Made by a program: the position numbers and the translations under genes. The notes under the pieces are model-generated. The model saw nothing but the letters and a program-made list of their open reading frames with translations, was not told the origin of the DNA and made no database searches. Positions 9,775-13,387 of a stretch of DNA of 47,322 bases are shown one piece after another. Within the stretch, counting starts at the first letter, position 1, and every line of letters starts with the position of its first letter. This DNA is from a virus, in IMG/VR virus record IMGVR_UViG_3300042301_000695, positions 1 to 47,322 of that record; one strand, given 5' to 3'.

Positions 9775-10500
9775 ATGAGCGATTTTCCAAAACTGCCCTT
9801 TGAGGCAGGCATCAAAAAAGCCGCACAACTAAATCGACCAAACTCGATTCTGGTTTACGGTGACCCAAAGCGTGGCAAGAGCTGGTTCGCTGCTTCGGCA
9901 GCTGAGGTAGCTGAGTTGTCACCTGTTCTCGTGCTAGACACCGAGGGTGGCTCTACCGCTATCTCTCGTGACTGGCCAGATGTGGATGTAGTTTCTACTG
10001 ACACTCACGAGAAGTTCGACAATGCAATCAACGCCCTACTAGGCCAGAAGCACAAGTATAAGACTGTCATCATTGACACTCTTGGTGTTGCTATGGACAG
10101 AGCCGAGAAGGCATTTGGCGAAAAGCCAGAGAACAAGAACAACAAGTTCGGTAAGTATGGCGACTTGAAGGTCTGGATCAACGACCTATCTCGCAAGCTA
10201 CACGCCGCTCCGTTCCTAGGAATCATTGTGGCTCACGCCCTTGACGAGAAGGACGAGAACACTGGTGCAGTAAAGACCATTCCACTGCTACCGGGTTCTG
10301 CTCGCAACACCCTTCCATCTGTGCCAGACATTGTGGCGTATCTCACCACAGAGTCCGACGGAGATGGTAACATTCACCGAGTGATGTATCTTCAGTCCTC
10401 GGACAGAATGGTCTCCGGAAACCGCTTCGGCCTTCCGGGAAGGCTTGTTGACCCAAGCATGAAGAAAGTCATTGACAAAATTGCTGAAGGAGGCAAATAA
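9775..10500 (+). CDS. Sak4-like RecA-fold ATPase (AAA_24 type)
   Basis: The 241-aa protein has a Walker A at residues 29-36 (GDPKRGKS), a Walker B-like KTVIIDTLG, LVLDTEGG in the region of the catalytic Glu, and a C-terminal part resembling short RecA/Rad51-type proteins of phages (Sak4). These assist single-strand annealing or strand exchange together with the phage SSB. It is preceded by its own promoter and an AAGGAGG ribosome site and is followed after 3 nt by the DUF669-like gene, the usual Sak4-SSB pairing. There is no N-terminal Rad51 domain. The recombination role is inferred from family and context. Confidence 0.85.
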   Translation: MSDFPKLPFEAGIKKAAQLNRPNSILVYGDPKRGKSWFAASAAEVAELSPVLVLDTEGGSTAISRDWPDVDVVSTDTHEKFDNAINALLGQKHKYKTVIIDTLGVAMDRAEKAFGEKPENKNNKFGKYGDLKVWINDLSRKLHAAPFLGIIVAHALDEKDENTGAVKTIPLLPGSARNTLPSVPDIVAYLTTESDGDGNIHRVMYLQSSDRMVSGNRFGLPGRLVDPSMKKVIDKIAEGGK

Positions 10501-10503
10501 ACT

Positions 10504-10968
10504 ATGGCACTCACCATCAACATCTCCGCCGGAGATCTAGCACCAAAGAGCGACTACTCCCTGCTACCTGCAGGAACATACTCCGCCACCATTTTCGACC
10601 TCGAGACCCTAGAGGTCAAGAGCGGTGAGAACGCTGGCAAGCCACAGTTCAAGGTTCAGCTTCGTGTATCGGAGGGCGAGTTCGAGAACCGCCGTCTGTT
10701 CACCTACGTTCCGCTTTACACTGGTAAGGCATTCTGGAAGACTCAGGCCTTCTTCGAGGCGCTGGGTTACGACATGAAGGACGGCAAGTTTGCTGTTCCT
10801 GCACCAAAGGACTTGATGGGTAAGACCATCGGTGCTAAGGTCAAGATCGTTCCGGGCCTTGAGGGCGAGGAAAACAACGTTGCTGGCTTCGTAAAGGCTG
10901 GTAGCACTCCAGAGGCCCTTATTGCGGGTCTCGGTGGAAAGCCAGTTGCCGAAGACGACACCTGGTAA
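10504..10968 (+). CDS. DUF669-like single-strand DNA-binding protein
   Basis: A 154-aa protein with the DUF669-type pattern: LPAGTYSATIFDLE, ENAGKPQFKVQLRV, NRRLFTYVPL, then KAFWKTQAFFEALGY, DLMGKTIGAKVKI and NNVAGFVK near the end. It is mostly beta, as expected for an OB-like fold. In phages this family regularly follows a Sak4 or similar recombinase and is believed to bind single-stranded DNA. An acidic C-terminal tip (EDDTW) resembles that of SSB proteins, which recruit partners. It lies 3 nt after the Sak4-like gene. A second protein of similar pattern is cut by the right window edge. Confidence 0.75.
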   Translation: MALTINISAGDLAPKSDYSLLPAGTYSATIFDLETLEVKSGENAGKPQFKVQLRVSEGEFENRRLFTYVPLYTGKAFWKTQAFFEALGYDMKDGKFAVPAPKDLMGKTIGAKVKIVPGLEGEENNVAGFVKAGSTPEALIAGLGGKPVAEDDTW

Positions 10969-11015
10969 ACACCAAATGGGCACTCCTGAGCATGAGTATA
11001 AACTGCTCACCCCCA

Positions 11016-11099
11016 CCCCTCTAATGGTTCGCTGGAAGCTTCTTACTCCTTTCTGTGCTTCACTCTCCTCAGCGCCGGGTTCGATTCCCGGAGAGGGAC
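11016..11099 (+). ncRNA. tRNA-like folded element (acceptor and T-arm like, no D or anticodon arm)
   Basis: A 6-bp stem CCCTCT (11017-11022) / AGAGGG (11092-11097) encloses two hairpins. The second is a perfect T-arm: CCGGG (11075-11079), loop TTCGATT, CCCGG (11087-11091). The first is a long bulged stem: CGCTG-GAAGC (11030-11039) pairs with GCTTC (11057-11061) and CAGCG (11070-11074), leaving an 8-nt bulge and a 17-nt loop. This has a tRNA acceptor and T-arm but no D-arm and no 7-nt anticodon loop, and no encoded CCA. It could be a degenerate tRNA, a tRNA-like regulatory RNA, or a relic of a host tRNA gene. It lies in the non-coding gap before the primase-helicase. Confidence 0.45.
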
Positions 11100-11101
11100 G
11101 A

Positions 11102-11173
11102 GACAAGGCAGGCGATTTTGCTCCCCCCCCCTTAGCAAAATCTTCGATTACGTCTTCGGTTGCCTGCCTTGTC
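11102..11173 (+). repeat. Nested perfect hairpins before the primase-helicase gene
   Basis: GACAAGGCAGGC (11102-11113) pairs perfectly with GCCTGCCTTGTC (11162-11173). Inside, GATTTTGCT (11114-11122) pairs perfectly with AGCAAAATC (11134-11142) around a loop of nine C and two T. The two stems stack directly, leaving 19 nt (11143-11161) on the 3' side. No T-run follows, so it is not a simple terminator. It lies 21 nt before the ATG at 11195, and the ribosome site (TAGGAGAA) lies outside the stem. It begins 3 nt after the tRNA-like element, so the two may form one structured leader. Confidence 0.7.
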
Positions 11174-11194
11174 CCATACCTTTAGGAGAAAGTT

Positions 11195-13387
11195 ATGAAT
11201 GTAAATGAATTTCTGGGGCTAGTGCTTGGAGAAGGTGCTGGCTATGCCACGATTGTGACGAAGGACTCAAAGGGAGTCCCAACTGTCCAGAAGTTTTTTA
11301 GCTACCCAGATGAACTCGACGAGATGGTCGCTTACGCTGAGCGATTCAAGAACGAGGATGTTTACTTCTCGCCAATCGTCTACTACGAACAAAGGCGTAT
11401 CCGCGAGAACGCCAAGAGCGTCTCTGTTGTGTATTCGGATGCTGACACTTGCAACCCTGCCAACTTCAGAATCGAACCATCGATCTCTGTGGAGACTTCT
11501 AAAGACCGCTGGCACTGCTATTGGGTGCTCGATGGCGAGGCCGACCCACAGCGAGTTGCTAATGTTGCGAAGAAGATTGCTTACGCACACCGAGACCAAG
11601 GCTGTGATGTATCTGGCTGGAATCCGACCAAGCTGCTTCGAGTAGCCGGAACTAGCAATAAGAAGTATGCCGAGACATTCGCAGTCTCTGCAACCACGAA
11701 TGGAATTATCTACTCAATCGAAGAGATTGAGAAGCAGTATGAAGATGTGCAGACTGACTCGATTCCTGAATTAGCTAACCTTCCAATGCCGGAAGAGACC
11801 CCAGAGCTAATGAAGGTGCTTTCGAAGATTGCAAGCAACCGAGAGATTCTTTCTCTCTACATGGAAGAGCCTAACGCAAACGCAGATATGAGCAAGATGC
11901 TCTGGCGTTTGGAGCTGGAGCTATTCCGACAGGGCTTGACAATCGAGGAAGTATTCACCGTTGCCAAGAACGCCAAGTGCAACAAGTATCACCACCCATC
12001 TCGGCCCAAGCGTCTGGATGCTGACGGAGATCTTTGGCGTGAGGTTCAGCGAGCACAGCAGTCGTTCGGGCAGGCTATAGCATCGGTTGAGCCACTAGAG
12101 GATAACTCTGCAGACTTCGAGAAGACCATTGACTTCCTAAGCTCCTCTGAGCGTGAGCTTGTGGCACAAACTCCTACCTTCGTAGACAAGTATTGCGACT
12201 GGGCTAGGAAGAAGACTGACGGAGCTATCGAGTATCAGATTGCCGGAGCGTTTACCATTCTCTCGTCGGCTTTCTCTGACATCGGAGCGGCCGCACCCAA
12301 GTATGGCAAGATGGGCCTGAACCTGTGGTTCATGCTTTTGGGTGAGACTACCCGAAGTCGTAAGTCGACTAGCCGTAGCTTGATGCTAAAGATGCTGACC
12401 GCCTACGAGCGCTTGGTCGGCTACCAGATCGACATCGGTTCGAACGCAACTGGCGAAGCCCTTGTGAAGCACCTTGCAGGTCGAGACAAGATGACATCGC
12501 TGTTCCACCGAGACGAGGTGCAGGGTATGTTCAAGGAGTTCGTGACCAAGACCTACATGGCCGCAGCTGCAGACCAATACACCGAGCTTTACGACGGCAA
12601 AGTTCCGGTTATGCTTCGCTCAACCGGAGCTAACACTGGCATCAAGGCCCTGCAGACCGACCGAGCTGAGACTAACTTCATTATGTATTTGATGGGTATC
12701 ACCAGCAAGGTTGCTGAGATTCTGACTGTCGACTACTTCCGCTCAGGCTTCCTAGCTCGATTCATCTATGTTGTGGCAGATGCGCCAGAACGCACAAGAG
12801 AGTCTGAGGACTTAGCTCAGGCCGAGGCCTATGCAACCTTCGTGCAGGATGACGAGATGGAGGGAATGGTCAGGGACATCTTCGACACCGCAACTTGGTG
12901 GCAGAAGAAGGGTGGCCCATTCCCAAGGCCGATCTTCATGTCTCAGGAAGCCCTAGACCGCTTCAACCAGTTCAAGTGGGAGATGGGTGACTACACCAAT
13001 GGACACCCGAACGAGGAGTCTGTAGAGCCTAGCCGTCAGCGCCTTGCTCTGTCTGTGTGGAAGATTGCTGTCTTGATTGCGATGTATGAGCGTTCTGAGA
13101 AGGTTCAGGTTGCTCATGTCCTAATAGCTATTCACTACGCCGAGGGCTGGTTCAAGAACCTTGTGCGTATGGCAGGAGCTATCTCGGCTTCAGAATGGCA
13201 GAGAGAGGTCGACTCCCTAGAGGCGCTGATTGCAACTCGTGGTGGCCGTCTGCGCTATGAGGAGGCCTTCAAGAAGTTTGGCGACAAGAAGAAGCGTGAG
13301 TTTGACGACATGATTGAGTCGCTACATTCTCAGGCCCGAATCAATGTCACGTTCGAAAACAATAAGAAGTTCTTGGAGACGCTATGA
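11195..13387 (+). CDS. Primase-helicase (AEP-type N-terminus, DUF3987-like C-terminus)
   Basis: A 730-aa fusion. The first 200 residues carry a RepB-like archaeo-eukaryotic primase pattern: VVYSDADTC (metal-binding Asp), DRWHCYWVLDGEAD, and NPTKLLRVAGTSNKK. From about residue 310 a DUF3987-like helicase part follows, with a degenerate Walker A (GETTRSRKSTSRS) and a Walker B-like LFHRDEVQGMF, and a C-terminal helical region. It should unwind DNA and lay primers, possibly also extend them, as PrimPol proteins do. No separate DNA polymerase gene is visible, so this protein is either the polymerase or works with the host enzyme. TAGGAGAA precedes the start; it follows the structured RNA element. 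Confidence 0.82.
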   Translation: MNVNEFLGLVLGEGAGYATIVTKDSKGVPTVQKFFSYPDELDEMVAYAERFKNEDVYFSPIVYYEQRRIRENAKSVSVVYSDADTCNPANFRIEPSISVETSKDRWHCYWVLDGEADPQRVANVAKKIAYAHRDQGCDVSGWNPTKLLRVAGTSNKKYAETFAVSATTNGIIYSIEEIEKQYEDVQTDSIPELANLPMPEETPELMKVLSKIASNREILSLYMEEPNANADMSKMLWRLELELFRQGLTIEEVFTVAKNAKCNKYHHPSRPKRLDADGDLWREVQRAQQSFGQAIASVEPLEDNSADFEKTIDFLSSSERELVAQTPTFVDKYCDWARKKTDGAIEYQIAGAFTILSSAFSDIGAAAPKYGKMGLNLWFMLLGETTRSRKSTSRSLMLKMLTAYERLVGYQIDIGSNATGEALVKHLAGRDKMTSLFHRDEVQGMFKEFVTKTYMAAAADQYTELYDGKVPVMLRSTGANTGIKALQTDRAETNFIMYLMGITSKVAEILTVDYFRSGFLARFIYVVADAPERTRESEDLAQAEAYATFVQDDEMEGMVRDIFDTATWWQKKGGPFPRPIFMSQEALDRFNQFKWEMGDYTNGHPNEESVEPSRQRLALSVWKIAVLIAMYERSEKVQVAHVLIAIHYAEGWFKNLVRMAGAISASEWQREVDSLEALIATRGGRLRYEEAFKKFGDKKKREFDDMIESLHSQARINVTFENNKKFLETL

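Follow-up and report, generated by a model that had tools for sequence, protein, structure and literature searches.

A conserved pseudoknot and tRNA-like RNA in the primase leader of uncultured phages, a possible translational regulator

In plant-virus 3' tRNA-like structures such as that of TYMV a pseudoknot lies immediately 5' of the tRNA-like structure, and in the E. coli thrS operator tRNA-like leader domains compete with ribosome binding. A further tRNA-like mRNA leader is that of the yjdF riboswitch, where a loop pairs with the Shine-Dalgarno (SD) sequence in the off state (PMC9142559) and the tRNA-like fold raises translation, with tRNA leaders giving a 2-6.3-fold increase (PMC9142559). 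Here we describe a phage locus that resembles all three of these systems in part and differs from each of them.

The stretch of DNA that was analysed (the window) comprises 47,322 nt of the IMG/VR record IMGVR_UViG_3300042301_000695. Its source is probably an actinophage, and the wider group of uncultured phages is probably actinobacterial. The gap between the genes for a DUF669-like protein and a primase-helicase holds three RNA elements in series, namely an H-type pseudoknot, a tRNA-like structure (TLS) and a nested hairpin (Table 1), and as a whole it folds better than its shuffles (z -3.07). The elements described in the initial annotation are all present, but the pseudoknot had been overlooked, and with it the structured region begins some 35 nt further upstream than given there.

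Table 1: Features of the window and related elements in other loci (L numbers denote loci, with their own coordinates).
Feature	Location	Strand	Basis or remark
DUF669-like single-strand DNA-binding protein, 154 aa, upstream gene	10504..10968	+	PHROG ssDNA-binding families, E-values weak to moderate
H-type pseudoknot: S1 ACTC/GAGT, L1 C, S2 TGAGCA/TGCTCA, L2 T, A-rich L3 ATAAAC	10982..11009	+	read from sequence, parsed, class covariation
TLS, whole	11017..11099	+	covariance model
TLS acceptor stem, 5' strand CCCTCT	11017..11022	+	sequence, family alignments, covariance model
Stemless D-loop AATGGTT, GG at 11026-11027	11023..11029	+	GG common to family
Central hairpin in place of anticodon arm	11030..11074	+	fold; family covariation; loop:SD complementarity in relatives
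17-nt loop of central hairpin	11040..11056	+	contains ACTCCTTTCT at 11045-11054
8-nt 3' bulge of central hairpin, ACTCTCCT	11062..11069	+	
T-arm CCGGG-TTCGATT-CCCGG	11075..11091	+	covariation
Acceptor 3' strand AGAGGG (11092-11097), then A73 C74 (11098-11099), CA not encoded	11092..11099	+	tail conservation
Nested hairpin / three-way junction	11102..11173	+	fold vs shuffles; conserved strand in relatives
Outer stem, perfect 12 bp	11102-11113 with 11162-11173	+	
Inner stem, perfect 9 bp	11114-11122 with 11134-11142	+	
Hairpin 3' strand AATCTTCGATTACGTCTTC	11139..11157	+	conserved
Primase SD AGGAGA	11184..11189	+	complements TCTCCT of TLS 3' bulge, 6 nt
Primase-helicase, 730 aa, presumed regulated gene	11195..13387	+	PHROG 10514 DNA primase, E 2.6e-159
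Odd pre-primase tRNA-like elements of cultured phages	L082 2109-2262; L131 842-982; L132 1771-1865; L084 2350-2480; L176 1620-1830		
Mini-tmRNAs	L071 1539-1621; L015 5531-5611; L008 3553; L074 3008; L089 3726; L122 6799; L035 11760		

In the TLS an acceptor-like stem and a T-arm enclose a long bulged hairpin (11017-11097) and neither a D-arm nor an anticodon arm is present, just as the initial annotation had read it. With tRNA it shares the acceptor, a T-arm with a TTCRA T-loop, the elbow GG and the N73-C74 end. At the position of the D-arm there is only a short stemless stretch with a family-wide GG, which is expected to dock with the T-loop by analogy with the tertiary contact of tRNA and tmRNA. 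The central hairpin of the window is built from the helices CGCTG/CAGCG and GAAGC/GCTTC. Across the family the acceptor measures 6-7 nt (5-7 bp paired), the T-arm carries TTCGATT, and the central arm consists of a 7-bp stem and a pyrimidine-rich loop with the core CTCCTTT, the loop usually being CUCCUUU-rich. The A73-C74 end appears as a 3' tail AC in 70 of 72 loci, and the real tRNAs of these phages mostly encode C74, likewise without CA.

As complementarity was its search criterion, our first parse of these structures was partly circular, and the sequences used in the later alignment and model tests were initially chosen by it; structure-blind alignments and the covariance model are more independent tests of the structure. 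In a structure-blind alignment of 30 sequences, from which the window and its near relatives were left out, 15 of the 17 TLS pairs show double compensatory changes, 91.6% of the cells are paired compared with 32-51% on sliding the structure, and 135 cells are changed on both sides compared with 40 in shuffles. All cells of the T-arm (100%) are paired with double changes in four of its five pairs, the acceptor is paired in 98.6% of cells, covariation is seen at 7/7 pairs of the central helix, and the conserved helices include G-U pairs. A covariance model made from these 30 sequences recovered the TLS of the window at exactly its position in Table 1 (44.3 bits, E 2e-8), this being the sole match in the 47 kb. 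For the pseudoknot, a structure-blind MAFFT alignment of 13 sequences gave double compensatory changes in 9 of 11 pairs and 98.6% of cells paired, compared with 24-36% on sliding, and its covariation score was equalled by 0/500 shuffles. The distance from pseudoknot to acceptor is 3-5 nt in most loci and 6-7 nt in the window's own clade. The free drift of the stems that had been named as evidence against the element was not observed, as every helix shows compensatory changes.

To place the element in its family we used 80 IMG/VR loci found by a scan with the primase, about 72 of which have the TLS at the same place (the parser returned 72 sequences upstream of the primase, window included). 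The usual order is DUF669 stop, pseudoknot, TLS, optional hairpin or real tRNAs, and primase, with DUF669-like orthologues 5' of the element in the relatives too; where real tRNAs occupy the site in some relatives, the TLS persists alongside them. An independent DNA pattern identified 42 stretches in IMG/VR, of which 41 lie, in coding-strand orientation, next to genes for DUF669 and primase. The 11 matches of the same pattern in the whole of GTDB all lack a full T-stem and are therefore due to chance. Nucleotide BLAST against cultured phages gave no matches; however, two cultured phages, Microbacterium phage WaterT and Arthrobacter phage Molivia, have a pseudoknot of the same design followed by a tRNA-like element in the same genomic place, although in neither of them does this element carry the anti-SD loop. 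The TLS is not confined to the primase: a related TLS that also contains an anti-SD stretch (a weak covariance-model match, 20.3 bits, E 0.07) precedes an FmdB-like gene in L160 and is missing from the syntenic L152, and the phage of L022 has a second TLS in the leader of another gene, which points to a movable leader module.

Several variants were seen on the way. Upstream of the primase, L060 and L077 have an armless mini-TLS after the pseudoknot region, then the conserved hairpin and then an anti-SD TLS. L124 (3776-3863), a GC-rich unrelated phage, contains a TLS-like element (26.8 bits) whose loop reads CACCTCCTTT, a sequence similar to the 16S rRNA 3' end. Odd tRNA-like elements also stand directly before the primase in cultured Arthrobacter, Microbacterium, Curtobacterium and Clavibacter phages (Table 1), some of them annotated as tRNA-Gly or 'undetermined'.

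For the nested hairpin the fold reaches z -6.45 and none of 200 shuffles folded as well. Both perfect stems, the one of 12 bp enclosing the one of 9 bp, are present as annotated, and the C9 assigned to the inner loop is there as well, but the loop really has 11 nt, C9 being followed by TT. The conserved 3' strand makes a third mini-hairpin. In six loci (L003, L022, L060, L077, L152 and L160) the strand AATCTTCRAYTACRTCTTC is retained amid differing stems, and thus the hairpin is a separate conserved module. This three-way-junction hairpin, which precedes primase or FmdB-like genes, looks like an independent RNA motif. Most of the 41 IMG/VR matches to the conserved strand are chance or coding matches without the stem.

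Comparison with known RNA families shows that the TLS is a member of neither the yjdF, the tmRNA nor the tRNA family. ARAGORN found no tRNA gene, Rfam scans of the window gave no match (tRNA and tmRNA RF00023 included), and neither a D-stem nor an anticodon arm exists in the family alignment, with no canonical anticodon arm in about 72 loci. It is thus not an ordinary tRNA, in agreement with the initial annotation. The compensatory changes and the empty ARAGORN, Rfam and terminator searches also strongly support the broader statement made there, that this is a tRNA-like RNA which corresponds to none of the canonical tRNAs, riboswitches or terminators. With the tRNA-like domain of tmRNA (RF00023) the TLS has in common the acceptor and T-arm, the lack of a stem at the D-loop and the replacement of the anticodon arm by a long helix. 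It differs in the missing G3-U70, whose position is C-G in the window and in almost the whole family, in the absence of the tmRNA-type D-loop (GGUUUCGA) and in having no tag reading frame, for which it leaves no room. Separate from the TLS, relatives also contain a family of mini-tmRNAs of about 80 nt (Table 1), which consist of the tRNA-like domain alone with a tmRNA-type D-loop, no tag domain and, in aligned copies, G3-U70. Two of them match RF00023 above the Rfam cut-off (48.8 and 61.4 bits; L071 and L015), the L015 copy and L126 2105-2183 are probably one element, and mini-tmRNAs are possibly competitors of host ribosome rescue.

In its presumed mode of action the TLS comes closest to yjdF. 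As in yjdF (PMC9142559), the TLS is a tRNA-like mRNA leader with a D-loop/T-loop elbow, and at the family level its loop is complementary to the downstream SD, a trait that is weak in the window (6 nt). The yjdF Rfam model found no match at E up to 5. Furthermore, yjdF masks the SD by its T-loop/P4 and has a four-helix junction with a pocket for azaaromatic ligands, whereas in the TLS the anti-SD stretch sits in the arm replacing the anticodon arm, a pseudoknot lies upstream and there is no known ligand. A pseudoknot directly preceding the tRNA-like part is also found in the TYMV-type elements, but these stand at genome 3' ends and form their acceptor from a pseudoknot, whereas the TLS lies between phage genes and has a plain acceptor helix. 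The thrS operator mimics anticodon arms for ThrRS, and in contrast the TLS mimics acceptor, T-arm and elbow without an anticodon. The mascRNA-menRNA family (RF01684) is likewise tRNA-like and reduced and lacks a complete anticodon arm, but it is a processing product of a eukaryotic lncRNA and its local match to the window is weak (14.5 bits, E 3.2; cut-off 42.5 bits). A literature search, with little coverage of subscription journals and preprints, found no description of the composite element.

The complementarity between loop and SD was analysed by comparing the longest loop/primase-SD complement of own pairs with that of permuted pairs, and the test was repeated with conservative groups and with nearest-relative, positional and drop-out controls. 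For loci without intervening tRNAs, the own complement averaged 7.72 nt compared with 6.30 nt after permutation (P < 5e-5); with 21 conservative groups, the loops match their own primase SD over 7.86 nt and those of relatives over 6.48 nt (z 5.6). The own SD was also preferred over the SDs of the nearest relatives (P 0.019 with three relatives, 0.0008 with five). On the primase side this signal is limited to positions -24 to -3, and on the TLS side to the loop in the mid-part of the arm; T-arm/acceptor and pseudoknot, taken as control segments, gave none. The longest loop:primase-SD complements reach 11 nt (L025 and L075); that of the window is unremarkable at 6 nt. Cross-complementarity increases with relatedness (rho 0.34), and therefore shared ancestry accounts for part of the signal. 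Among other genes the exonuclease SD shows an own-loop excess (z 4.5) and the Sak4 SD a weak one (z 2.8), which fades on dropping the five strongest loci, while DUF669, the helicase (five loci only) and the other tested neighbours show no significant own-SD excess; these genes are limited as controls because their SDs are weaker. An exact mimic of the 16S rRNA 3' tail was also considered and set aside, as the loops diverge from this tail and track the phages' own SDs. One clade (L036 1040-1106, L044 5929-5990 and L045) retains the TLS close 5' of the primase SD, but its loop is U-rich and contains no anti-SD stretch, and thus SD pairing cannot be the sole role.

The reading that we prefer, and hold with about even confidence, is a tRNA-like translational riboregulator in the primase leader of a recombination-replication operon. 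The nascent operon mRNA would fold into the pseudoknot and, 3-7 nt 3' of it, the TLS with acceptor, T-arm and D-loop/T-loop elbow. The pyrimidine-rich loop of the hairpin replacing the anticodon arm would pair with the downstream primase SD and, in many relatives, could likewise pair with two further SDs of the operon, those of exonuclease and Sak4, so that translation would be held down. If the tRNA-like fold were favoured or occupied by the ribosome, EF-Tu, RNase P or another tRNA-binding factor, the SD might be freed in a yjdF-like manner. The structures, their conservation and position, and the own-SD complementarity of the loop across the family are observations; the pairing, its repressive sign and its trigger are inferred, and the regulator may act in cis, within the mRNA, or in trans as a released RNA. 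Of the four functions suggested in the initial annotation, gene control, named there as an attenuator of the replication gene, has the best support, only that it would act through translation and not through transcription attenuation.

A processed small RNA from the TLS region is possible. If tRNA enzymes excised the TLS, its anti-SD loop might pair in trans with the exonuclease, Sak4 and primase SDs, which we regard as rather unlikely. The own-SD excess for exonuclease and Sak4 besides the primase, with none for the other tested genes, speaks for it, as do loop complements of 12 nt, which L038 shows with the SDs of both exonuclease and Sak4 and L028 with that of exonuclease; since the exonuclease gene lies upstream of the TLS, its signal fits trans action at least as well. 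The A73-C74 end resembling the phages' real tRNAs and the persistence of the TLS beside such tRNAs point the same way. On the other hand, the strongest signal is that of the primase, and the short, conserved distance between pseudoknot and TLS favours a single continuous RNA. Where tRNAs lie between TLS and primase, processing should sever the TLS from the primase mRNA and trans action should show best, yet no loop:SD excess is seen there (P 0.26, eight loci only). A wider version, a new phage RNA class of tRNA-shaped anti-SD RNAs which host tRNA enzymes handle and which set the translation of several replication and recombination genes of the phage through pairing with their SDs, is conceivable but tentative. 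The same enzymes enter a distinctly less probable explanation, RNA-processing punctuation, in which RNase P and tRNA 3' enzymes would split the operon mRNA at the TLS, so that the upstream product would be protected at its 3' end by the pseudoknot and the primase would receive a fresh 5' leader, with the loop sequence being secondary. Here the retention of the features read by tRNA enzymes (acceptor, T-loop, elbow GG and A73-C74), the U-loop clade with its TLS close 5' of the primase start, and tRNAs or tRNA-like elements of other designs before the primases of several cultured actinophages would all be expected, but the co-variation of loop and SD, seen in these two parts only, is left unexplained.

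That the TLS is a degraded ordinary tRNA gene, a remnant of a phage tRNA cluster, is hardly credible: its T-arm and acceptor are tRNA-like and real tRNAs occur at the same site in some relatives, but compensatory changes in every helix together with the nearly constant pseudoknot spacing indicate present selection, and the canonical anticodon arm is missing throughout. Very improbable is also a DNA-level replication start structure, or a terminator-type attenuator of the primase gene. The inverted repeats do lie next to replication genes and the nested hairpin is very stable; however, G-U pairs are tolerated inside conserved helices, the examined loci have the element on their coding strand, the GC skew shows no feature around 11 kb, and the TLS precedes non-replication genes as well. 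We thus dropped the DNA origin, which the initial annotation had also offered, and with it the terminator, as no intrinsic terminator (GC-rich hairpin plus U-run) was found in 10400-11400.

In summary, the pseudoknot and TLS form a composite RNA that is real, strongly conserved and, as far as the papers searched show, previously undescribed, and that fits among the tRNA-like regulatory leaders. It probably sets the amount of phage replication and recombination proteins made. A large group of uncultured phages thus carries a conserved pseudoknot plus anti-SD-loop TLS with nothing alike in Rfam, while in the cultured actinophage relatives WaterT and Molivia elements of the pseudoknot-plus-tRNA-like kind are unannotated or annotated as odd tRNAs. 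Phage 'tRNA' genes whose anticodon arms look odd may accordingly be regulators, and with this element one could ask in a natural setting whether an mRNA leader that mimics tRNA is able to switch translation.
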